Origin: Pseudomonadota bacterium
Lineage (GTDB): Bacteria > Pseudomonadota > Gammaproteobacteria > Burkholderiales > JABEVD01
Reading direction: 5' to 3'
Assembly (NCBI GenBank): GCA_021848825.1
Contig: JAJZTQ010000003.1
Location: 62,001-126,000 of the forward strand
DNA length: 64,000 nucleotides
Shown here: positions 6,954 through 17,493 of the stretch, one piece after another
Layout of the letters: each line of letters opens with the position of its first letter
Position numbering within the stretch: position 1 is the first letter of the stretch
Made by a program: the position numbers and the translations under genes
The notes under the pieces: generated by a model
What the model saw: the letters and a program-made list of their open reading frames with translations, nothing else
Databases searched by the model: none
Told to the model about the DNA's origin: nothing

Positions 6954-7376
6954 TTACTCCGGCTTTCCGCCCATGTCGATGGGTTTTCCCTGCGAAAGGG
7001 ATGTGATGTAGGCTGCGATATTGGTGAGCTTTTCGTTTCCAGCTTCAGGAGGCGTTCCCTGAAGCGCATTCTTCACGCAGGCGCGGATCTGGTCTTCAAG
7101 CGTCACGACCTTCTTCGCCTTCGGGTTGAATCGGGGAAATATCGCTGCAGCATTGGAAAGGCTGGGAATGGCTTTTCCGTTCGGCAGCTTGCCTGGACCG
7201 ACCCCGTCGTTGCTGTGGCAGGCATCGCATGTCTTGCCCTTGCCGCCGAATGTCTCGTGGGAAAAGGCCTGCTTTCCGTCCTGGATTGCGCTCTGCAGCG
7301 GGTCGCCGGCATGCGCCGAGAGACTGGCCGAAAGCAGAACGGCTGAAAACAATGCAGCTTTCTTCGAAAATTTCAT
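6954..7376 (-). CDS. Secreted monohaem cytochrome c with SoxA-like C-terminal half
   Basis: A 140-residue protein with a signal peptide ending SAHA at about residue 23 and one haem site, CDACH. It sits last in the sox locus, where one might expect SoxX. Its C-terminal half does not read like SoxX. It follows the SoxA pattern: haem site, a [FY]P-x-F segment, LEDQIRAC 45 residues after the haem (41 in this locus's SoxA), then NIAAYITSLSQGKP matching FMTYMSNGLP. The cysteine of IRAC aligns with the catalytic cysteine of SoxA. Likely role: electron or sulfur handling in periplasmic thiosulfate oxidation. AGGAG precedes the start. Confidence 0.7.
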   Translation of the reverse strand: MKFSKKAALFSAVLLSASLSAHAGDPLQSAIQDGKQAFSHETFGGKGKTCDACHSNDGVGPGKLPNGKAIPSLSNAAAIFPRFNPKAKKVVTLEDQIRACVKNALQGTPPEAGNEKLTNIAAYITSLSQGKPIDMGGKPE

Positions 7377-7400: not shown

Positions 7401-7928
7401 TTAGGGTGTGATCAAAATATAGCCTGATTTTTCGAAATCCACGACTGCGCCTATGCCGGATACGACTCGCCGAGCGAAGGGAAGAAGGTCTTCGGGCGTG
7501 TACCCCTTGAGCTTCATCGCAACCGAGCATTCGTACATCTTCACGCCGGCCTGCTTCATCGCCATCAGCAATTTCCTGTTGGGATTGCCCTTGGGATGGG
7601 AACCCTTCACCTTCGCATCGTAGGCATCGTCGGTCAGGAGGAACTGAGCGCCGTCCGCCCTGAAGACCATCACGATATCATAGTCCTTTCCAGGCTTCAT
7701 TCCCAGCGCGGCATATTGATCGACCAGATTCTTCGTTCCGAATATCTGCTTGGATATGCCATTTCTCTGGATGACGTCGTCATGGTTGACCTGCACCACC
7801 ACCTTGAGACCGGTCTGGTTGACGATCTGAAGCGGAGGCTCCGTATTCAGAGCCGCATCGTCAGCAAAGGCGGTGGTTATTCCGAAAAGAGCAAGTGCAA
7901 GGCATAGCTCCGTCATCCATTTCTTCAT
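7401..7928 (-). CDS. Secreted DsrE/DsrF-like protein (second in sox locus)
   Basis: A 175-residue protein with a signal peptide cleaved near residue 22 and one DsrE-like domain. Family hallmarks are the first strand LKVVVQVNHDD, a middle YDIVMVFRADGAQFL, then AGVKMYECSVAMK with the single mature-part cysteine, and VVDFEKSGYILI at the end. DsrE-fold proteins bind sulfane sulfur on such a cysteine, so a periplasmic sulfur carrier or sulfur-binding role is inferred. AGGAG precedes the ATG. It lies between a porin and a cytochrome, all on the minus strand with about 20-bp gaps. Confidence 0.8.
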   Translation of the reverse strand: MKKWMTELCLALALFGITTAFADDAALNTEPPLQIVNQTGLKVVVQVNHDDVIQRNGISKQIFGTKNLVDQYAALGMKPGKDYDIVMVFRADGAQFLLTDDAYDAKVKGSHPKGNPNRKLLMAMKQAGVKMYECSVAMKLKGYTPEDLLPFARRVVSGIGAVVDFEKSGYILITP

Positions 7929-7948: not shown

Positions 7949-9412
7949 TTAAAAATTATAGGTTGCGCCGAATGTGATGCGATTTCCTATGGATCCGGCA
8001 ATGATCCCTGCATCGATCAGCTGCGTATGCGCATTGGCAACAATCGCGGCAGGCTCCGACAGGTAAGACGTCGGATTCGCCACGCTGGCCTTCCTGACTT
8101 CATAGTTGACCATGAATCTCAGATTCTTGCTGTAGAAATACTGTGCGCCGTAGGTCACAGTAGAGAAAAGCCGCTCGTCATAGGCCGAATTCTTCAGCTT
8201 GTCGAGATAGTCATAGCGCCAGTCCGCTTCCCATTTGTCCAGGAACCGGTATCCGACGTCGAGGTAATAGCCGTCTGCCGTGTTGGACGAGGCAAGCGCC
8301 ATCTGGTCGACAGGTTCGAATGCAGGCGCGCCGATGTCGAGGAAGGGGGCGACAACGCCATAATAGATCATGCCGGCTGCCTTGATGTATTCGCCGCCCA
8401 CCCTGAGGCCGTTCCTGCTGTATCTCGCGCCCACGCCTTCACGTATGCGGCTGTAATTGGTGCCGTCGTAATTCCGCTGTCCTACCTGGCGCCAGACATA
8501 GGCTGAAGCATCCTGGCGGAAGGGACCTGACCCTCCGAATACGTAGGACGCCTGGAGGCGGCCGGATACGTCGTAATTGCCGTTGTTCGCAAACTGCAGG
8601 CCGTTTCCGTCACTCACCATCAAGGCATAGGAATATTCCCAATTGCCCTTGTTGATCCAGTCATAGGCCTCCACACCCATGTCCCTGAATGCGCCAACCG
8701 GCTTGTTGTTGAGTGCGGCCATGCAGTGTCCAGGAGTCGCGCAGGTCAGGTTGTTCGCGCCGCCGGCGAGACCGGCAAGGGTCACCTGGGTCATCGGTAC
8801 GCCGAAAAGCGGCACTTCGGGACGGCCGCTGTAATAGGGGCTGACGAAGCGCTCATTCAGGAGTTGATCCGAAACGTTGGTGAGGTTGGCGAAATTCATC
8901 TGGGGCTCGCCCTGCATCGCCTCTTCGCCAAGCGGAAGCCTTCCCAGACCCACCCTGACCCTCGTTACGGGGAGGTTGAAGGTGATGGTCGCATCGGTAA
9001 ACGCGGGGGCATACCTGAAAGAATCGGGGCTCTGCTTGACCACCGTGATGCCGTTGTAGCCCAGTTCGGCAAGCAGGAAATAATTGATCTTGCCGTTCGT
9101 TCCTGGCATGAGTCCTCGCAATCCAGGCCTTGCCCTGAAGATCTGGACTGCATTCTGGTGAGAGAAGTCGGGTCCGACCAGGTTGTTGAGCGAATCCTGT
9201 CCGTTGTAGTTTGTCAGCTGAGGATTTGGCGCCTTGATGCCTTCTACGGCAGCGCCTTCGTTGTGAACGAGTTGAGGCTGAACGAATCCCCAGAAATGGG
9301 CTGTATCGGTCGAACCTTGCGGTTCGTTGTTTTCCAGCTGCAGCCAGTTGACCGCATAGGAAGTCTGACTGAAAGCAGAAAGCATTGCGGCAGCGATGAT
9401 ACCCCTTTTCAT
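7949..9412 (-). CDS. Outer-membrane porin
   Basis: A 487-residue protein with a signal peptide (cleavage after SYA, about residue 20) and a long series of amphipathic beta strands, ending in an aromatic residue (ITFGATYNF), the outer-membrane insertion signal. It resembles phosphate-selective-porin-like (O/P type) channels. Its place inside the sox locus suggests uptake of thiosulfate or another sulfur anion, but this is inference. AGGAGG lies upstream of the ATG at 9412. The 222 bp upstream (9413-9634) is AT-rich and may hold a separate promoter; I could not pick out a convincing -35/-10 pair there. Confidence 0.85.
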   Translation of the reverse strand: MKRGIIAAAMLSAFSQTSYAVNWLQLENNEPQGSTDTAHFWGFVQPQLVHNEGAAVEGIKAPNPQLTNYNGQDSLNNLVGPDFSHQNAVQIFRARPGLRGLMPGTNGKINYFLLAELGYNGITVVKQSPDSFRYAPAFTDATITFNLPVTRVRVGLGRLPLGEEAMQGEPQMNFANLTNVSDQLLNERFVSPYYSGRPEVPLFGVPMTQVTLAGLAGGANNLTCATPGHCMAALNNKPVGAFRDMGVEAYDWINKGNWEYSYALMVSDGNGLQFANNGNYDVSGRLQASYVFGGSGPFRQDASAYVWRQVGQRNYDGTNYSRIREGVGARYSRNGLRVGGEYIKAAGMIYYGVVAPFLDIGAPAFEPVDQMALASSNTADGYYLDVGYRFLDKWEADWRYDYLDKLKNSAYDERLFSTVTYGAQYFYSKNLRFMVNYEVRKASVANPTSYLSEPAAIVANAHTQLIDAGIIAGSIGNRITFGATYNF

Positions 9413-9634: not shown

Positions 9635-10147
9635 TCATTTTGTCTTCGATTCCGGCATGAATATCGGGACAATGAGGTTGTATCCCATGGATTCGTAATG
9701 TGCTATCGTCGGATAGGCGCCTGAATTCACGACGGCGGGATTCTTTTCATCGAGCCCAATCATGTCGGCTGGCTTGAGGCCGACGCTGTGAACGGAATTG
9801 CCGCAGAATTCGACCTTCACGCCTCTTTTCGCGAAATCGGCCCACTGGTCGACGATGCCCTGATGATCGAGGTAGTTCTTTTTTGCGAACATGGCCACGA
9901 AAGGTCCCTCTATGACGACGGCAAGCTGGGCGCCAGGATGCTCGAGAATGCGCGTTACGACCATCGTGCCGTATTTGATCGCATTGACGTCTTTAGCCTT
10001 CAGATCCATGATGATCTTGAGGTCGCTGAACCGGACGGCGGTATGGTCTACTGCCGTTCCTCCGGGAGCGAAGGAATCATCCTCTGCGCTCGCCTGAAGG
10101 GCGAAGCCGAGAAATGCGATCAGGATCAGTTTCAGAATGTATTTCAT
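9635..10147 (-). CDS. Secreted DsrE-like protein (first in sox locus)
   Basis: A 170-residue protein with a signal peptide (cleavage after ASA, about residue 21) and a DsrE-like domain. It shows SDLKIIMDL, ALEHPG-like HPGAQLAVVIEG, then RGVKVEFCGNSV carrying the conserved cysteine and YPTIAHYESMGYNLIVP at the end. It lies 29 bp downstream of soxB and is probably in the same transcript. A role in carrying or sensing periplasmic sulfane sulfur is inferred from the fold and the place. The start at 10147 is chosen for AAGGGG at the right spacing and for the signal peptide. Confidence 0.8.
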   Translation of the reverse strand: MKYILKLILIAFLGFALQASAEDDSFAPGGTAVDHTAVRFSDLKIIMDLKAKDVNAIKYGTMVVTRILEHPGAQLAVVIEGPFVAMFAKKNYLDHQGIVDQWADFAKRGVKVEFCGNSVHSVGLKPADMIGLDEKNPAVVNSGAYPTIAHYESMGYNLIVPIFMPESKTK

Positions 10148-10176: not shown

Positions 10177-11880
10177 TCATGCGATGCCCTGGTTCCCTTC
10201 CACGCCGACCAGCCTGGGCAGATTGAGTTTCCTCGGGGTGATGACTTTCTTGTCCCTGAGGTAGGCGGAAACCACTTCCCATATCGGCTCGCCTTTCACG
10301 CCTTCCGCTATGGGCGCCCAGCCGGCTATCCTGTATTTCTTTCCCGCTTCCAGCGGTTTTCCGTTCAGCATCAGGTTGTTTATTCTTTTTCCGAAACCCT
10401 GCGAAAGATCGCAGGTATAGGTAACCCCGCCCACTCTGACCATGTCCCCTCCCTGCTGCTTGTAGGGGTCCGGATTGAAAAGATTGTCCAGCACGTCTTC
10501 CAGTATGTCCTTGACGGTCTGTCCGGTCATCTCCGTCACCGTGGTCTGGGGGTAGGTTATTGCAGTCTGGTCCATCAGGTGCTCCATGGTGATGTCTTCA
10601 CCGGGGAGCAGCGTGGTGCCCCATCTGAATCCTGGGGAGAAGGCGGCATCCGCCCCTTTCGTTTCGATCAGCGCATCGAGGATCAGCTGGTCGAAAGTGC
10701 CATTGAAATTCCCTCGCCTGTAGAGCAGCCCTTCGGTGACGGCGAGCTTCTCGGAAAGCTTGTCTTCATACGGGGCGCGCACCTTCCTGATGAGCGCGCT
10801 CATTTCCGGGTCGGGTGCGAGCAGATTCGAGAATACCGGGAGGAGCTTGTAGTTGTAGCCTGCGATCCTGCCTTTCCTGACGTCGAGATCAAGCACGCCG
10901 AGGAATTTTCCGTTCGATCCCGCATTGGTCACGAGCGTCTGTCCGCCTGGATTCTTGACGATGGATGGTTGAGGGACGCCATCGTGGGTATGCCCGCCGA
11001 GAATGGCATCTATCCCCCTTATTCTTCCCGCCATCTTGAGGTCTGCATCCATGCCGTTGTGGGACAATACCACGACGACTGCAGCGCCCTTGGCTCTCGC
11101 CTCGTCCACAGTCTGCTGCATGCTGTCTTCGTGGATGCCGAAAGTCCAGTCAGGCGTCATGTATTTCGGATTTGCAACGGGCGTATAGGGAAAAGCCTGG
11201 CCGATGATCGCCACCGGCACGCCATTGATCTCTTTGATCACATAATGCTCGAACACGGGGTCGCCGAAATCGGCAGTCTGGATGTTCTGGGCGAGGAAAT
11301 CTATTTTCCCCTTGAAATCGTTGTCGACGACATGCTTCACTCTATCCGCGCCGAACGTGAATTCCCAATGCCCGGTCATGACGTCCACACCCAGCAGCTT
11401 GCAGGCATCGACCATGTCCTGGCCTTTGGTCCAGAGCGAAGTGGCTGAACCCTGCCATGAATCGCCCCCGTCGAGCAGCAGGGAGCCCGGCCTGCTTGCC
11501 CTGATTTTCTTGACCAGGGTGGCGAGATGGGCGAATCCGCCGACCTTGCCATAGGTCCTTGCGGCATGCTCGAAATCGAGATAGGTGAAGGCGTAGGCGT
11601 CCGCGCTGCCGGGAGGGATGCCGAATGCCTTCAAGAGATGCTCCCCTACCAGATGGGGGGGCTTGTTCTTGCCGCTTCCAACGCCGATGTTGACATTGGG
11701 CTCCCTGAAATAGATCGGCATCAGCTGGGCATGACAGTCCGTCATGTGCAGCAGGGAGACATTTCCGAAGGGCGGGAGATCGTAATGGTCCGATGCAAAA
11801 ACCGATCGGCTGTCGAGAGCGAGCCCTGAGGCTGCCGCCATTGCGAGGAGCTGCAGGAATTCTCTGCGGTTCATTGACAT
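10177..11880 (-). CDS. soxB: Thiosulfohydrolase SoxB
   Basis: Periplasmic dimanganese hydrolase that releases sulfate from the thiosulfate-derived group bound to SoxY. The 567-residue protein starts with a twin-arginine signal (NRREFLQLLAMAAAS). It has the 5'-nucleotidase-family metal motifs: HMTDCHAQ near residue 45, LLLDGGDSW near 136, TGHWEFTFG near 170 and GGHTHDG near 300, and ends with the usual C-terminal domain. The length is that of SoxB. The GGAAG at -10 supports the ATG at 11880. It starts 3 bp after the soxA stop. Confidence 0.96.
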   Translation of the reverse strand: MSMNRREFLQLLAMAAASGLALDSRSVFASDHYDLPPFGNVSLLHMTDCHAQLMPIYFREPNVNIGVGSGKNKPPHLVGEHLLKAFGIPPGSADAYAFTYLDFEHAARTYGKVGGFAHLATLVKKIRASRPGSLLLDGGDSWQGSATSLWTKGQDMVDACKLLGVDVMTGHWEFTFGADRVKHVVDNDFKGKIDFLAQNIQTADFGDPVFEHYVIKEINGVPVAIIGQAFPYTPVANPKYMTPDWTFGIHEDSMQQTVDEARAKGAAVVVVLSHNGMDADLKMAGRIRGIDAILGGHTHDGVPQPSIVKNPGGQTLVTNAGSNGKFLGVLDLDVRKGRIAGYNYKLLPVFSNLLAPDPEMSALIRKVRAPYEDKLSEKLAVTEGLLYRRGNFNGTFDQLILDALIETKGADAAFSPGFRWGTTLLPGEDITMEHLMDQTAITYPQTTVTEMTGQTVKDILEDVLDNLFNPDPYKQQGGDMVRVGGVTYTCDLSQGFGKRINNLMLNGKPLEAGKKYRIAGWAPIAEGVKGEPIWEVVSAYLRDKKVITPRKLNLPRLVGVEGNQGIA

Positions 11881-11883
11881 GGT

Positions 11884-12693
11884 TTACTTCCTGAAGACGG
11901 GGGTCTGCATCGGCAGGCCGTTGCTCATGTAGGTCATGAAATATTCGAGATCGTTTGATTCCCGGCTGTTGAGTTCCGGCGGCTTCGCGCCCATGTTCCT
12001 GGCGCATTGACGAATCCGCCCCTGGAGCGTCGTCAATTCAGTGCCGTCTATGAACTCGGGATAATGGCTGGCCTGACCGATCAGCATCGATATTTTTTCG
12101 TCATTGATGGTCTTGCCCACATTGTCGACATGGCAGCTTGAGCAGGCATATTTTCCGTGCTTTTCATAGTAATAGCGCTTGCCATCGAGATAGGCCGAAA
12201 GCGCTCCTTTTCCTTCGACCTTGACATCGACTTTTGCTCCGTCGGACAGGCTTTTCGCATAGGAAGTGACGAGCCCCATCTCCCTTCCTCCGTAGGAAAG
12301 GGCCTTCTCGCCGTTTGCCTCGCGGCAGGCATCGATCGCATTCTCGAAAGTCACGACGCGATGAAGCTTTTCGTCGTAATAGGGATAATTCGCTGCGATT
12401 CCTTTGCCGCCGTTGTCGAAGCAGGATGAATATGTCTTTCCGTTCCCGAAGGGTTTTTCCCAGAGCTTCTTCCCCTCGTCCAGATCGACGGAGAAGGGGG
12501 GGAAGGACATGATGTCGTCGTACTGGCTTTTTGCTGCAGCATCCATCGAAAAGGTGCCGAGCACGTAATCTTCGAACCTGATTTTCGGAAGCGCCTGCCT
12601 GTATTGGTCGAGCAGGGAAGCCCTGTCTTCGACGGGACCGGCGTGGGCTGCAGAAACAGAAAAAAGGATGGCTGCGAGGAGTGCCTTTTTCAT
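11884..12693 (-). CDS. soxA: L-cysteine S-thiosulfotransferase subunit SoxA (monohaem type)
   Basis: SoxA couples thiosulfate oxidatively to the SoxY cysteine, normally with SoxX. The 269-residue protein has a signal peptide ending AHA and a single CSSCH haem site at about residue 180. The N-terminal domain keeps the SoxA fold (YSSCFDNGGKG, VVTFENAIDACREANGEK) but has no CxxCH, so this is the one-haem form. The active cysteine is in RIRQCARN. The C-terminus FMTYMSNGLPMQTP is typical. It starts 2 bp after the soxZ stop. Confidence 0.93.
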   Translation of the reverse strand: MKKALLAAILFSVSAAHAGPVEDRASLLDQYRQALPKIRFEDYVLGTFSMDAAAKSQYDDIMSFPPFSVDLDEGKKLWEKPFGNGKTYSSCFDNGGKGIAANYPYYDEKLHRVVTFENAIDACREANGEKALSYGGREMGLVTSYAKSLSDGAKVDVKVEGKGALSAYLDGKRYYYEKHGKYACSSCHVDNVGKTINDEKISMLIGQASHYPEFIDGTELTTLQGRIRQCARNMGAKPPELNSRESNDLEYFMTYMSNGLPMQTPVFRK

Positions 12694-12695
12694 TG

Positions 12696-13010
12696 TCAGG
12701 AGATGACGACTTCGCCGGAGAAATTGGTGCCGAGATTGTCGACTGCGCTCACTGCGATCTTGTCCCCGGATTTGGCGCCCTTCACCTTGAAATTGAAATA
12801 AGGATTCTTCGAAACCCCGACGCCCCACTGCATTTCGAGGACGGTCTTGCCGTTCAGGGTTGCGGAAACCAGGTCGATGAAATGGGCCGGGATGATTTTT
12901 CCCGTGTCCTTGTCCTTTCTCAGTCCCGTCTCCATGATATGCTTGATCAGCACCTTCACATCGGCAACGTCTCCCTGCATCGTCGCCCGCATTTTCATTG
13001 AATTGTCCAT
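12696..13010 (-). CDS. soxZ: Sulfur carrier complex subunit SoxZ
   Basis: SoxZ is the immunoglobulin-like partner of SoxY in the SoxYZ carrier. The 104-residue protein has no signal peptide, as usual for SoxZ, which is co-exported with SoxY. It contains KVLIKHIMETGLRKDKDTGKIIPAHFI-type sequence and ends NLGTNFSGEVVIS. GGAG is about 9 bases before the ATG at 13010. It lies between soxY (15-bp gap) and soxA (2-bp gap). Confidence 0.95.
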   Translation of the reverse strand: MDNSMKMRATMQGDVADVKVLIKHIMETGLRKDKDTGKIIPAHFIDLVSATLNGKTVLEMQWGVGVSKNPYFNFKVKGAKSGDKIAVSAVDNLGTNFSGEVVIS

Positions 13011-13025
13011 TCGATTCTCCGATTC

Positions 13026-13487
13026 TCAGCCGCCGCAGCCGCCCAAGGTGACCTTGACTTCCTTGTTGGTCATGTAGTTTTTTCCGCCCGCTTTCACGGC
13101 AACCCGCACGATACAGGTTTTTGCCATCTTGATGTGCGTTGCCAGGAAGGGTTCCGCACCATTCGAGAAGGTGAAATCTGCAACGAGGGGATTGGGATTC
13201 TTTTCCGAGAAGAATGCCATGGAAACGGTGTCCGGGATGTTGCTCGTCGCCTCCACCGGGACGATCGCCCCGTCTTCGGCGATGTCAGGGACCTTGAGCA
13301 GAATGTCCGGGCTTTCCACGGCATTGCCGTATCCGGCAGCCTGCATGGCATCCTCCAGGGTTTTTGCCGAAAAGGCTGTTTTGTTCCATGTCGCTGCAAA
13401 AGCGGCAATGGGGTCGAGAAGGCCGGCCGACAACAGGGCTGCCAGCGCTCCGGCGCCTTTCAGGAAGGCTCTGCGCATTTGATTCAT
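13026..13487 (-). CDS. soxY: Sulfur carrier subunit SoxY
   Basis: SoxY carries Sox pathway intermediates on a C-terminal swinging-arm cysteine. The 153-residue protein ends exactly GGCGG, with Cys151 as the carrier residue. The N-terminus MNQMRRAFLKGAGALAALLS looks like a twin-arginine-type signal, which exports the SoxYZ dimer. I chose the ATG at 13487 because AGAAAGG precedes it and the signal starts there. It is the first gene of the sox operon and is divergent from an ECF sigma gene; a candidate ECF promoter lies 58-83 bp upstream of its start. Confidence 0.95.
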   Translation of the reverse strand: MNQMRRAFLKGAGALAALLSAGLLDPIAAFAATWNKTAFSAKTLEDAMQAAGYGNAVESPDILLKVPDIAEDGAIVPVEATSNIPDTVSMAFFSEKNPNPLVADFTFSNGAEPFLATHIKMAKTCIVRVAVKAGGKNYMTNKEVKVTLGGCGG

Positions 13488-13544
13488 CTGAAACCTTTCT
13501 AGTCTGAATTGTTCAGGATTTTTCGATTCTCCCGATGCCATTAT

Positions 13545-13570
13545 GACGCAGGATGGGCGAGATTTATTCC
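13545..13570 (-). promoter_or_regulatory. Candidate ECF-type promoter for soxYZAB
   Basis: Read on the minus strand, GGAATAA begins at 13570, followed by 13 bases and TGCGTC ending at 13545. A GGAA-type -35 and CGTC-type -10 with 16 bp between GGAATA and CGTC is the usual ECF promoter layout. Transcription would start near 13537, giving a leader of about 50 nt before soxY. The same motif lies in front of the adjacent ECF sigma gene. Confidence 0.65.
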
Positions 13571-13609
13571 AAAAATATTTCAAAAATGTTTCTCCGACCT
13601 GAATAAGAT

Positions 13610-13635
13610 GGAATAATCCAGTGTCGACATGCGTC
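13610..13635 (+). promoter_or_regulatory. Candidate ECF-type autoregulatory promoter
   Basis: On the plus strand GGAATAA (13610-13616), 13 bases, and TGCGTC (13630-13635) repeat the motif found before soxY, with identical spacing. The start would be near 13643 and the leader about 85 nt. This suggests the sigma factor transcribes its own gene, as most ECF factors do. Confidence 0.65.
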
Positions 13636-13705
13636 TATACGAAAAACATATTGATGAATGCCACGGAGGGCGGGTCTTGAAGAATGAACGGGTTGATGGA
13701 TCGTC

Positions 13706-13719
13706 GGACCCCGGGGTCC
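13706..13719. promoter_or_regulatory. Perfect 14-bp palindrome just upstream of the ECF sigma start
   Basis: GGACCCCGGGGTCC is a perfect GC-only-armed palindrome ending 7 bases before the sigma ATG at 13727. No strong Shine-Dalgarno is present other than AGG beside it. In RNA it could pair near the ribosome binding site; in DNA it could be a protein site. Confidence 0.5.
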
Positions 13720-13726
13720 AGGTCCG

Positions 13727-14278
13727 ATGAAAATATTGTCGCTGCTTTGCCGTACCGACCTGCAGAGTCAGCTCGAGAAGATACGCCCCAAGCTTTACCG
13801 GGTGGCCTATTCCTGGAGCCACAACGCTGCGCTTGCCGATGATCTTGTCCAGGAGACGATGATCAAGGCGCTGCAGAATTCAGGTCAGCTCAGGAACCCG
13901 GATTCGCTCAACGGCTGGCTTTTCACCATATTGGCGAATTGCTGGCGGGATTATTTTCGGCAGCACAGGGAAATGGAAGATATAGAGGAACTCGAGGATT
14001 ACCGCTGCGTCGACGAGTTCACGCCTGAAGACGGGCATGCGCAGTCCCAACTCGTCAGCCGGGTGAGGCATGCCGTATCCAGGCTTCCGCTCGGGCAGCG
14101 CCAGGTGTTGACGCTGGTCGACCTCGAGGAGTTTTCCTATGTCGAGGTTTCCGGCATCCTCGACATTCCGGTAGGAACAGTGATGAGCCGCTTGTGCAGG
14201 GCGCGAAAGGCATTGAAGAGCATGCTGTACGAACTCGCGCCAACGACGGCGAAAGTCAGTCACATTCGGAGGATTTGA
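13727..14278 (+). CDS. ECF RNA polymerase sigma factor, sox-linked
   Basis: A 183-residue sigma-70-family factor of the extracytoplasmic-function type. Region 2 runs through AALADDLVQETMIKALQN at about 35-52 and WLFTILANCWRDYFRQ at about 64-80. Region 4 is LPLGQRQVLTLVDLEEFSYVEVSGIL and IPVGTVMSRLCRARKALK at about 123-164. There is no region 1.1 or 3. One base separates its stop from the next gene, an anti-sigma factor, so the two are translationally coupled. It is divergent from soxYZAB, and matching ECF-type promoter motifs lie on both sides. Regulation of sulfur oxidation is inferred. Confidence 0.9.
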   Translation: MKILSLLCRTDLQSQLEKIRPKLYRVAYSWSHNAALADDLVQETMIKALQNSGQLRNPDSLNGWLFTILANCWRDYFRQHREMEDIEELEDYRCVDEFTPEDGHAQSQLVSRVRHAVSRLPLGQRQVLTLVDLEEFSYVEVSGILDIPVGTVMSRLCRARKALKSMLYELAPTTAKVSHIRRI

Positions 14279-14279
14279 G

Positions 14280-14999
14280 ATGTCAAAGATTTCTGACGAA
14301 TATCTGAATGCGTTTGTAGACAATCAGCTCGATGCCGAAGAAAAAGGTCTGGCATTCGACGCCATAGGTAAGGATGATGCGCTGAGAGGCGCCGTATGCG
14401 AAGTGCGAGAGTTGAAGGAAATGGTGAGGCATGCCTATCAGGATCCGCCTGGCTACAGGCGGTTGAGAGAAAAATGGCGTTCGCGTATCCAGCTTCAATC
14501 CCTAGCGGCCTGCCTGATGCTCTTGATGGTGGGCGGGCTGTCCGGCTGGCTCGTCTCGACGATTTCAGAATCGGGAACCGGTCGTGAGCTCGGCCACCTC
14601 TTCCAGGCCATATCGCGCAGCGACAGGGGCTCGGAACCGAGCAAGATCATGATCTATGTCGGCAATGCCAATCCCGTGAGGCTGCGGGCCGCACTCGACG
14701 AGTCCGAGAACCTGCTCGAAGATTACAGGCGCGACAATCAGAAGCTTAGGCTCGAAATCATCGCCAACGATAGCGGCGTGGATCTGCTGCGCGCCGGGGT
14801 GTCGCGCTATGCCGGCCGCATTGCCATGATGCAGGCAAGATATCCGAACCTCAGCCTCGTCGCCTGCACCCAGACGCTCAACAAGCTGCAGAGGCGGGGG
14901 GTTGCAGTCCGTCTTCTGCCCAATATCAAGACCGTCACTTCCGCGGCCGATGAAATCAGGAAGCGCCTGAAGGAGGGATGGGATTACGTCAGGGTTTGA
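14280..14999 (+). CDS. Membrane anti-sigma factor with C-terminal DsrE-like domain
   Basis: A 239-residue protein in three parts. Residues 1-65 resemble the helical anti-sigma domain (ISDEYLNAFVDNQLDAEE near the start). Residues 71-95 are one hydrophobic membrane helix. Residues 121-239 read as a DsrE/DsrF-like domain of the COG1416 type: KIMIYVGNANP, then LEIIANDSGVDLL, then NLSLVACTQTLNKL with Cys196 at the family's conserved cysteine, and EIRKRLKEGWDYVRV at the end. The N-terminus would be cytoplasmic and the DsrE domain periplasmic. I infer a sensor that holds or frees the sigma factor according to sulfane sulfur on Cys196. There is no zinc-binding HxxxCxxC motif. Confidence 0.8.
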   Translation: MSKISDEYLNAFVDNQLDAEEKGLAFDAIGKDDALRGAVCEVRELKEMVRHAYQDPPGYRRLREKWRSRIQLQSLAACLMLLMVGGLSGWLVSTISESGTGRELGHLFQAISRSDRGSEPSKIMIYVGNANPVRLRAALDESENLLEDYRRDNQKLRLEIIANDSGVDLLRAGVSRYAGRIAMMQARYPNLSLVACTQTLNKLQRRGVAVRLLPNIKTVTSAADEIRKRLKEGWDYVRV

Positions 15000-15052: not shown

Positions 15053-15130
15053 GGACCACAAGCGTCATTTTTTTGATAATCTATGATCTGATTGCGGAAA
15101 GCATTCCGCGTTGAATTGAGAGAGATCAAA

Positions 15131-16126
15131 ATGACGGTTGAACATCCTTTTGCACAATACATCAAGACGCTCGGCAAAGGCAGGCATGGCTCCCGTGCGC
15201 TCACGAAGGAAGAGGCAGAAGGGGCGATGAGCATGATCCTCGCCGGGGAAGTCGAACCCGTCCAGCTGGGTGCTTTCCTGATGCTGCTCCGGGTGAAGGA
15301 GGAGACGGCGGAAGAACTCGCCGGTTTCGTTACGGCTGCGAGAAAATCGTTCGTGTTGCCCGAATCCTGCCCGAAAATCGATCTGGACTGGTCGAGCTAC
15401 GCAGGAAAGCGCAGGCAGCTTCCCTGGTATGTGCTTTCCGCATTGCTTCTCGCAGGCAATGGCATTTCCATCCTGATGCACGGCATGAAGGGCGGCGGGG
15501 ACAGGGTCCATACGGTGGATGCGCTGAAGTCTCTCGGCATATCCGCCTCTTCTTCCCTGAATGATGCCCTCGAGAAGGTGGGGAAGAAAGGCTTCGCATT
15601 CTTGGGCTTCGATGTCTTGAGCCCCAAACTGCAGCAGATCATGGACCTGAGGCCGCTTTTCGGGCTCAGGTCGCCCGTCCACACCATCGCGAGGATGCTG
15701 AACCCTGCCCATGCATCCCTTTCGTTTCAGGGCATCTTCCATCCTGGCTACCTCGATTCTCATCAGCAGGCAGGCAAGCTGCTGGAAGAAAACATGGTCG
15801 TCTTCAAGGGCGAAGGCGGGGAGGCGGAGCGAAATCCCGATCTCGCCTGCAAGGTGAGGACAGTATTGGGCGGCGAAATGAAGGAAGAGGAGTGGCCCGC
15901 CCTTTTCGCGATAAGGCATGTCAAGGACGAGGAAATGGACGTGTCGCGCCTTTCGAAACTGTGGCGCGGCGAGATAGACGACGAATTCGGGAAAATGAGC
16001 GTGATCGGCACGGCGGCCATCGCATTGAAGGCGATTGAGGACCTTGGCACGATGGAAGAAGCCGAAGCAATGGCGGAAGAATGGTGGGAAAGACGCGACA
16101 AGGCGGGCCTCGGGAGGTTCGCCTGA
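15131..16126 (+). CDS. ybiB: TrpD2/YbiB family protein (anthranilate phosphoribosyltransferase-like)
   Basis: A 331-residue protein of the glycosyltransferase family 3 fold related to TrpD. It shows the N-terminal helical part (LTKEEAEGAMSMILAGEVEPVQLGAFLMLLRVK) and the core with LLAGNGISILMHGMKGGGDRV. The family member YbiB from E. coli binds nucleic acids and has lost the TrpD reaction, so this is probably not a tryptophan enzyme. GAGAGA precedes the ATG. The stop overlaps the cysG start by one base (TGATG), so it is in one operon with cysG, a common arrangement in related bacteria. Confidence 0.85.
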   Translation: MTVEHPFAQYIKTLGKGRHGSRALTKEEAEGAMSMILAGEVEPVQLGAFLMLLRVKEETAEELAGFVTAARKSFVLPESCPKIDLDWSSYAGKRRQLPWYVLSALLLAGNGISILMHGMKGGGDRVHTVDALKSLGISASSSLNDALEKVGKKGFAFLGFDVLSPKLQQIMDLRPLFGLRSPVHTIARMLNPAHASLSFQGIFHPGYLDSHQQAGKLLEENMVVFKGEGGEAERNPDLACKVRTVLGGEMKEEEWPALFAIRHVKDEEMDVSRLSKLWRGEIDDEFGKMSVIGTAAIALKAIEDLGTMEEAEAMAEEWWERRDKAGLGRFA

Positions 16127-17493
16127 TGGATTTCTTTCCCATTTTTCTCAATCTCGGGAACAAGCGGTGCCTCGTCGTGGGTGGAGGGGAAGTTGCAGTC
16201 AGAAAGGTTTCCGTTCTGCTCCAGTCAGGTGCGAAGGTCACCGTCGTTTCGCCCGAACTCTGCTCTGAACTGAAAAAGCTTGAAATAGACTATATCCGGG
16301 AGAAATTTTCGGAAGCAAGACTGGAAGGGATGACCCTTGTCATCGCCGCAACGGATGACAGGGAAGTCAATGTCCAGGTCTCGAACGCTGCGAAGAAACG
16401 GAATATTCCCGTCAATGTGGTCGACAATCCCGATCTGTGCAGCTTCGTCATGCCTTCGATTCTGGACCGGTCTCCGCTCATCGTCGCCTTTTCCACGGGC
16501 GGCGCCTCTCCGGTCCTGGCCCGCCTCTTGCGAGCCAGATTCGAATCGCTGATTCCTGAAGGCTATGGCAGGCTCGCCGCTTTCGCTTCACGCTTTCGGG
16601 AAAAGGTCAAACAGAAGATAACGAAGCCCTCTGACAGGCGGATATTCTGGGAAGATGTATTCGAGGGAAGGGTGGCTGAGAAGGTGTTCCTCGGAGATGA
16701 AAAGAAGGCCGAAGCGATCCTCGATGAAATGATGGAAAGGAAGGATACGCATCAGGGAGAAGTCTATCTCGTTGGGGCGGGGCCTGGCGACCCTGATCTC
16801 CTGACATTCAGGGCATTGAGGCTGATGCACAAGGCCGATGTCGTGCTCTACGACAACCTCGTGTCGAAGCCGATACTCGAGATGACCAGGCGCGATGCGA
16901 CGAGGATCTATGTCGGCAAGAAAAAGAGCGACCATGCGATGCCGCAGGAGGAGATAAACGAACTCCTGGTGAGGCTCGCCAAGGAAGGAAAGCGGGTATT
17001 GCGCCTGAAGGGGGGGGATCCCTTCATCTTCGGCAGGGGCGGGGAGGAAATCGAGAAGCTCTCCGAGAACGCCGTGCCTTTCCAGGTGGTGCCGGGCATC
17101 ACCGCAGCTTCAGGCGTTTCGAGCTATGCGGGCATCCCGCTCACCCATCGCGACCATGCCCAGTCCTGCGTCTTCGTCACAGGGCATCTGAAGGACAACA
17201 GCATGGACCTCGACTGGGAAATGCTGGCAAGACCCAGGCAGACCGTGGTGGTCTACATGGGGCTGACGGGAATAGACCACCTCTGTTCGAAGCTCATCGA
17301 GCACGGCCTTGCGCCGACTACGCCGGCAGCAGTGGTTCAGCAGGGCACGACCCGCAACCAGAAGGTGGTCACAGGAACGCTTGCAAACCTTCCGGATGTC
17401 GCCAGGACAGCGAATCTGACTCCGCCGACCCTGATCATCGTCGGGGGCGTGGTCAGCCTCAGGGAAAAGCTTTCCTGGTTCGAACCGAATTGA
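16126..17493 (+). CDS. cysG: Sirohaem synthase CysG
   Basis: Trifunctional enzyme that converts uroporphyrinogen III to sirohaem. The 455-residue protein has an N-terminal NAD-dependent precorrin-2 dehydrogenase/ferrochelatase part ([14 protein letters not shown] at about 15-28; [10 protein letters not shown] at about 77) and a C-terminal methyltransferase part starting at about residue 215 ([44 protein letters not shown]). Both halves are full length. GGGAGG lies 9 bp before the ATG at 16126. Sirohaem serves sulfite and nitrite reductases, fitting the sulfur metabolism around it. Confidence 0.96.

Follow-up and report, generated by a model that had tools for sequence, protein, structure and literature searches.

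A periplasmic DsrE domain on the predicted membrane anti-sigma factor of an extracytoplasmic function sigma factor encoded beside soxYZAB

How sulfur oxidizers sense inorganic sulfur such as thiosulfate is little known, as the available part of PMC10451225 states. A locus in a 64,000-nucleotide stretch of a Burkholderiales genome (assembly GCA_021848825.1, contig JAJZTQ010000003.1, positions 62,001 to 126,000; hereafter the window, numbered from its first base) poses this question in a concrete form: the genes for an extracytoplasmic function (ECF) sigma factor and a membrane anti-sigma factor with a DsrE domain (region 13488–14999, + strand) adjoin soxYZAB in the opposite orientation. What does this pair control, and what does it sense? 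The promoter arrangement shared by the sigma gene and soxY, sites in trans ahead of sox genes, and the co-occurrence with SoxB tie the pair to sox, and comparison of sequences makes it highly probable that it controls sox genes. With less assurance, we favor the persulfide model as a whole, in which the pair would be an ECF26-like switch for thiosulfate oxidation with a DsrE domain as sulfur-carrier sensor.

The divergent arrangement of the pair and soxYZAB had been described in a first-pass annotation made from the sequence alone, and was borne out by the Pfam sigma regions of the first protein and by verification of soxY, soxZ, soxA, and soxB on the − strand. The sigma protein is composed of regions 2 and 4 without another large domain, as in ECF sigma factors, and 1 base separates its stop codon from the anti-sigma gene, which is preceded by a Shine–Dalgarno-like AGGA. 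With a gene directly downstream of the sigma gene and a single membrane helix with the N-terminus inside, the second protein has the general characteristics of an anti-sigma factor and is predicted to inhibit the sigma factor. Relatives were collected in one scan of GTDB r220 genomes with one N-terminal peptide pattern, which returned 158 stretches encoding them; locus counts rest on the best 80 of these 158, three others, and the window (84 loci). Because the pattern is N-terminal, it accounts in part for the invariance of D6, L9, A11, and D14; it does not include Cys196. The sigma gene adjoins the anti-sigma gene in 83 of 84 loci, the exception (L103) being cut by a contig end.

An AlphaFold2 model of the anti-sigma factor (81 relatives; mean predicted local distance difference test score, pLDDT, 85) contains N-terminal helices at residues 6–13, 19–31, and 33–54, a helix at 72–96 placed at low confidence (block means 53–61), and an α/β domain at 121–238 (block-mean pLDDT 94–98). 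The annotation had claimed a membrane helix at 71–95, with which hydrophobicity and charge also agree, and a DsrE domain at 121–239. Structure comparison supports the latter: the best ten chains have Z scores of 11.9–18.3, the next chain 7.1, and six of the ten carry DsrE, DsrEFH, TusBCD, or DsrE-like names; the remaining four (1l1s, 2pd2, ychN, and BT1422) we take to have the DsrE fold. The C-terminal part also matches MTH1491 in a PDB sequence comparison (1.4e-5, and 4.2e-16 with a profile of the 81 relatives). The window protein matches no Pfam family at E 0.01 (DUF7088 alone appears, at 0.021 and below its cut-off) and nothing in NCBIfam, and PF02635 (DsrE) is matched at E 0.01 by 14 of the 81 members and not by the window protein; its DsrE assignment is based on the PDB sequence match and the fold. 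The anti-sigma-like N-terminal part that had been proposed for this protein agrees with its homology to anti-sigma factors beside SorT-like genes, and its structure and profile matches to MucA, RseA, and RsiW are weak: MucA and RseA head 21 profile matches at E 0.05–0.06, and three of the ten chains in an N-terminal fold search are anti-sigma factors.

In the 15 residues flanking the most hydrophobic stretch, the 81 members have on average 3.7 Lys/Arg residues before and 1.05 after it; the protein is therefore oriented N-in, C-out, with the DsrE domain outside, and the periplasmic location of this domain is well supported. Cys196, which the annotation had placed at the family cysteine position, is a cysteine in all 81 aligned members and aligns with a cysteine of MTH1491 (1l1s) and of ST0148 (2pd2). 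It is also the single cysteine beyond the helix (alignment position 97 onward) in 81 of 81 members; the helix itself holds extra cysteines in some members (position 78 in 23 of 81), and a cytoplasmic Cys40 is conserved in 77. In DsrE of the DsrEFH proteins, Cys78 is the catalytic cysteine in sulfur trafficking, according to the accessible text of PMC13047784. A Cys40–Cys196 disulfide was considered and rejected because the two residues lie on opposite sides of the membrane. We likewise rejected membership in DsrEFH/TusBCD, as the anti-sigma DsrE is a single domain on a membrane protein, and assignment to the zinc-binding anti-sigma factors, with HxxxCxxC present in none of the 81 members and Pfam zf-HC2 matching 5 of 81 at E 0.01.

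Enumeration of 5-mer/gap/4-mer pairs (gaps 15–18, no letters preset) upstream of sigma genes gave GAATA-N16-CGTC and GGAAT-N17-CGTC as the top pairs, found in 77 of 88 sigma-upstream regions compared with 11 and 12, respectively, of 504 random stretches from the same loci. GGAAT-N17-CGTC is also found upstream of soluble dsrE genes in 44 of 69 regions, against the same 12 of 504. This motif is the consensus published for the ECF26 sulfite-response promoter (−35 GGAAT, −10 CGTC; PMC6527743, available part). The conserved blocks continue into AAA and TTA, and spacer positions 9–21 hold at most 0.16 bit (134 unique sites), a pattern that points to selection on the sites and not to recent common descent. 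The window contains exactly two copies of GGAAT-N17-CGTC, the divergent pair facing the sigma gene and soxY.

Across the 84 loci, GGAATA-N15/17-CGTC occurs at 144 sites compared with one for the reversed pattern. These face sigma genes (78), soluble dsrE genes (48), soxY (3), SoxB-like genes (2; perfect sites in L056 and L082), anti-sigma-labelled genes (3), and unlabelled genes (10), the labels being assigned by profiles built from the same loci. Two of the anti-sigma-labelled sites (L089, L100) owe their label to overlapping frames at the sigma start, and one lies within the gene. The unlabelled sites include two ahead of SoxC (L058, 625 bits; L086, scanned as L190, 601 bits; cut-off 420), one in L068 ahead of a sulfur transporter (Sulf_transp, 1.5e-60), one in L102 ahead of a Blh-like metallo-β-lactamase-fold protein below its cut-off, and two ahead of DsbC-like proteins (L048, scanned; L049, by likeness); the other four (L065, L094, L095, L107) have no assigned gene. 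A sigma-facing site is present in 77 of 84 loci, and three of the remaining seven are cut by contig ends.

Sites in trans were sought in eight whole genomes with the 11-base pattern GGAATAA-N15-CGTC, which occurs 27 times, compared with 2 for the control, at site-to-start distances of 1 to 265 bases. Behind these sites lie sigma (8), soluble dsrE (3), soxY (3), soxC (2), soxB (1), and soxX (1) genes, one gene each for a YeiH-like exporter, Lipoprotein_15, ResB, and ccoN, and in five cases no clear gene. For the most part, the sites at sigma, dsrE, and soxC genes are those already found in the 84 loci; those ahead of soxY, soxB, and soxX lie in trans and had not been seen there. SoxB (711.8 bits), SoxX (96.5), and SoxC all exceed their cut-offs, and the soxY hits consist of two contig-end fragments and one of 112.5 bits, below the cut-off of 125. 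The genomes of L066, L078, L094, and L107, four of the 15 loci without local sulfur labels, were picked because their pair lies away from labelled sulfur genes, and each has a site ahead of a sox gene elsewhere (soxY in two, soxX in one, and soxB in one). In the window's own genome, a 9-base pattern gives 43 hits (control 2), four of which are GGAATAA.

The distribution of the family also points to sox. In a class sample of 370 genomes, at least 73, spanning 42 families, encode the full-length protein, and SoxB is present in 72 of the 73 genomes with a listed full-length protein compared with 89 of the 297 others (Fisher p 4.8e-30, kinship ignored; SoxB counts read by hand from match lists). 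SoxB was called at E below about 1e-100 (161 genomes; 159 over the model cut-off). Among 60 near relatives including the window's own genome, nine have the full-length protein (E <1e-30), all nine with SoxB over the cut-off, and SoxB is found in 23 of the 51 without it. A phylum sample of 249 genomes contains three full-length matches, all in one order. A plasmid search with the anti-sigma factor returned ten records, none covering 80% of the query, and one with the sigma factor returned 841, among whose listed matches identity is at most 43%; no reference was taken from them. Record titles of the relatives include Sulfuricella, Thiobacillus, Acidiferrobacter, Thiohalobacter, Sulfuritalea, Hydrogenophilus, Pandoraea, and Cupriavidus. 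Two pairs occur in one locus or genome in L084, L101, L065, and genome G657, and some species may thus sense more than one state. The fusion, which the annotation had proposed to seek in other genomes, is accompanied by sox-family genes in 17 of the 84 loci, by a soluble dsrE gene within 3 kb in 56, and by a porin homolog in 34.

What, then, might the pair sense? The annotation had proposed a sulfane-sulfur sensor that switches on sox: the periplasmic DsrE domain, the lone Cys196, and the link to sox stand, and the signal, the direction of the response, and the release of the sigma factor are what we infer. Our best guess for the signal is sulfane sulfur or a loaded carrier. In the resting state, the sigma factor would be kept at the inner membrane by the N-terminal helices. 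Periplasmic sulfane sulfur would form a persulfide on Cys196, with or without delivery by a loaded carrier such as an exported DsrE protein or SoxY, and the change would be transmitted through the single membrane helix so that the sigma factor is released, by conformational change or proteolysis. The free sigma factor would then transcribe its own operon and soxYZAB from the two divergent GGAATAA-CGTC promoters, and a feedback loop would be closed if the DsrE proteins and the porin-like gene behind soxY are co-transcribed. SoxC has no match in the window's own genome; the Sox pathway is therefore probably truncated, in which case its sulfane sulfur has to be passed to an acceptor. Exported DsrE proteins could play this part, and the anti-sigma factor could be a gauge of their load.

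Three results go beyond the annotation: the ECF26 promoter consensus, an N-terminus in common with anti-sigma factors beside SorT-like genes, and an exported DsrE homolog as a frequent divergent target. They make a DsrE partner and sulfite live rivals as signals. The first of these, to which we assign a minor share of the probability and which is compatible with the persulfide model, holds that the anti-sigma DsrE domain binds the exported DsrE protein and reads, by DsrE–DsrE contact, how abundant or how sulfur-loaded it is; the sigma factor would switch on this homolog, which would feed back on it, on or off. A soluble dsrE gene is divergent from the pair in 45 loci, 44 of which have a site facing it; an opposite-facing site is also present in 13 of the other 39 loci. 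All 41 soluble DsrE proteins pass a crude signal-peptide test (a hydrophobic stretch, then AxA), and a cysteine aligned with Cys196 is present in 43 of 43 (these 41 and two of the window). Complexes among DsrE proteins are known: TusBCD (2d1p) is titled heterohexameric, and DsrEFH (2hy5) is a three-protein complex (PMC13047784, available text). Against a partner speak the 28 of 84 loci without soluble dsrE within 3 kb.

That sulfite is the signal, as a ligand or reactant of the DsrE domain, is suggested by analogy with the ECF26 systems of Sinorhizobium and Starkeya, which respond to sulfite; we judge it unlikely. Besides the promoter consensus, the argument for it comes from SorT-like loci: of 25 searched, three (L154, L160, L164) have an ECF sigma factor, a homologous anti-sigma N-terminus, and GGAATAA-CGTC sites. 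A profile of residues 1–100 matches their anti-sigma factors, which are stand-ins rather than the RpoE4/RpoE1 sequences, at 3e-10, 1e-7, and 3e-10, and their C-terminal parts do not match the DsrE-domain profile at E 1. The family thus has the appearance of an ECF26-type pair in which DsrE has taken the place of the original sensor, given an N-terminus homologous to that of anti-sigma factors carrying another sensor. A sigma tree for ECF26 membership was poorly resolved, with long outgroup branches and a row (L053_10) that is a shadow frame, and was not used. The differing sensor domain argues against sulfite. So do the identified targets, which are DsrE and sox genes and not sulfite oxidases of the SorT type, and the absence of a match to the SorT model in the window's own genome. 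In the SorT-like loci L180–L182, the anti-sigma factors have in common another C-terminal part, marked by the cysteine motif GC[HR]L and perhaps the sulfite sensor. According to the available text of PMC6527743, the mechanism by which ECF26 anti-sigma factors sense sulfite and release the sigma factor is unknown.

The DsrE domain might also serve mainly in oligomerization or in general thiol/redox stress, with the lone cysteine sensing oxidants through intermolecular disulfides. Such disulfides can be formed by a lone periplasmic cysteine, and one predicted target elsewhere (L048) is DsbC-like; most other targets are sulfur-oxidation genes and SoxB co-occurs, so we regard this role as improbable.

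Several observations weigh against the persulfide model or its tie to sox. Published ECF26 systems have sulfite as their reported trigger (PMC6527743 and PMC3511301, available parts). The three SorT-like loci with a homologous N-terminus are 3 of 25 and all fall below the SorT cut-off, and none of the five loci over that cut-off has a homologous anti-sigma N-terminus. Three of these five have an ECF sigma factor of another kind, in agreement with PMC6527743, in which this consensus is missing from the beta-proteobacterial group. The best PDB chain in the N-terminal fold search, RsiW with SigW, is a hint only (Foldseek E 4.5, Z 4.3). One class-sample genome (G110) has the full-length protein without SoxB. 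The window's own genus is patchy, with the protein in two of eight other genomes and no match in six, four of which also lack SoxB and two of which have it. In the window's own genome, the two GGAATAA sites beyond the divergent pair are not clearly ahead of sulfur genes: one precedes a short dehydrogenase-like reading frame, and one adjoins, but faces away from, a SoxB-like gene. Finally, dsrE, sox, and porin labels are all absent from 15 of the 84 loci; two are short contigs (3.6 and 6.0 kb), and in several, read by eye, the pair lies amid housekeeping genes. These loci would suit a pair with another regulon that lies near sox by chance, a reading made very improbable by the sites in cis and in trans ahead of sox genes and by the SoxB co-occurrence.

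The features of the window are collected in Table 1. The start of soxY was corrected from the sequence to the ATG at 13487, ahead of a Tat signal, from TTG 13583. On the − strand, soxYZAB is followed by genes for two different DsrE proteins with one for a porin-like protein between them, and then by one for a SoxA-like cytochrome; both DsrE proteins have signal-peptide-like starts, as read from the sequence. No description of the function of these two DsrE proteins or the porin-like protein was found in the literature consulted. Directly downstream of the anti-sigma gene (15092–17493, +) lie genes for a glycosyl-transferase-3-family protein and siroheme synthase (CysG), perhaps tied to siroheme for sulfite reductase. 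Elsewhere in the genome, the SoxB-like gene on contig C50 (L146:396–2381, −; 661 aa; TIGR04486 164 bits, cut-off 550) is faced by a separate site with one mismatch, read by eye. Contig C37 (53187–61530; L183, L184, L186) holds three more DsrE-family genes, two of them adjacent, which suggests a cytoplasmic dsrEFH set.

Table 1. Coordinates of the sigma/anti-sigma pair, its promoter sites, and neighboring genes in the window
Feature	Position	Strand	Evidence
ECF sigma factor, 183 aa	13727..14278	+	Pfam Sigma70_r2 5.7e-16, r4_2 1.4e-15; TIGR02937 87.5 bits, cut-off 42.9
Putative membrane anti-sigma factor with DsrE sensor domain, 239 aa	14280..14999	+	Sequence, AlphaFold2, fold comparison
N-terminal anti-sigma-like helices, residues 6–54	14295..14441	+	AlphaFold2; homology to anti-sigma factors by SorT-like genes; Cys40 codon 14397–14399
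Membrane helix, residues 72–96	14493..14567	+	Hydrophobicity, charge; AlphaFold2 helix at low confidence
Periplasmic DsrE domain, residues 121–239	14640..14996	+	Fold, PDB sequence match; Cys196 codon 14865–14867
Predicted promoter site GGAAT-N17-CGTC facing sigma gene	13610..13635	+	Motif enumeration; ECF26 consensus
Predicted promoter site GGAAT-N17-CGTC facing soxY	13545..13570	−	Motif scan
soxY	13026..13487	−	TIGR04488 159 bits, cut-off 125
soxZ	12696..13010	−	TIGR04490 132.9 bits, cut-off 76
soxA (start inferred at MKKALLA)	11884..12693	−	TIGR04484 196 bits, cut-off 110
soxB	10177..11880	−	TIGR04486 878 bits, cut-off 550
Soluble DsrE-family protein (signal-peptide-like start inferred at MKYILK)	9635..10147	−	Pfam DsrE 2.7e-5, 24.7 bits, cut-off 22.7; Cys aligned with Cys196
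Porin-like protein	7949..9412	−	Pfam Porin_O_P 6.9e-4, below cut-off
Second soluble DsrE-family protein, signal-peptide-like start	7401..7928	−	Pfam DsrE 8.9e-9, 36 bits, over cut-off
SoxA-like small cytochrome c	6954..7376	−	Pfam SoxA-TsdA_cyt-c 7.6e-15

We see about an even chance that the family is a broadly distributed class of membrane-spanning regulators that arose when a sulfur-relay domain replaced the anti-sigma sensor of an ECF26-type system, and that a single cysteine reports how much sulfur periplasmic carriers hold, either by becoming persulfidated or when an exported DsrE protein under the regulator's own control docks. If so, sulfur carriers would double as signal carriers across the membrane, exported DsrE proteins behind the same promoter would be given a part in the Sox pathway or in its regulation, and the family would suggest how bacteria that live on thiosulfate sense the sulfur they burn. 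The sulfur-sensing question becomes directly testable with this family: the fold of its sensor domain is known, a single cysteine lies outside and is invariant, the promoter is defined, a regulon is predicted, and cultured hosts can be named.

The domain shares its fold with MTH1491 (1l1s), ST0148 (2pd2), YchN, DsrEFH, and TusBCD, and its cysteine position with the first two; whereas the DsrE chains in the structure comparison have 101–132 residues and are not part of a membrane anti-sigma factor, here the domain is fused to one. The annotation knew of no ECF system with a DsrE sensor, and we found no description of an anti-sigma factor with a DsrE domain in the open literature, subscription papers and supplements being beyond reach. 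The regulators SoxR and sHdrR, which reportedly have no periplasmic sensor, also exert sulfur-responsive control over sulfur-oxidation genes. Unlike the system described here, they are ArsR-type repressors responsive to sulfane sulfur, without a sigma factor, SoxR acting through two conserved cysteines, and the SoxR gene accompanies complete Sox systems more frequently than truncated ones (PMC10451225, accessible part). ECF sigma factors that alter sox expression, sigma-2 and sigma-7, are described for Arcobacter butzleri; the available part of PMC3445524 makes no mention of DsrE, and the effect was followed by transcriptomics and a pH assay. The closest likeness of the promoter is to ECF26 RpoE4/RpoE1 of Sinorhizobium meliloti and SigE of Starkeya novella, which recognize the same −35 and −10 elements (PMC6527743, available part) and likewise combine a sigma factor with a cognate anti-sigma factor and a sulfur oxidation regulon; their reported targets are sulfite oxidases, not sox carriers, and their reported signal is sulfite. 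A further likeness is found in the Pandoraea terrae genome (L191), where a GGAATAA-CGTC site lies just upstream of a Lipoprotein_15 gene; in S. meliloti, the rpoE1 operon likewise begins with a gene of this kind (PMC3511301, accessible part).

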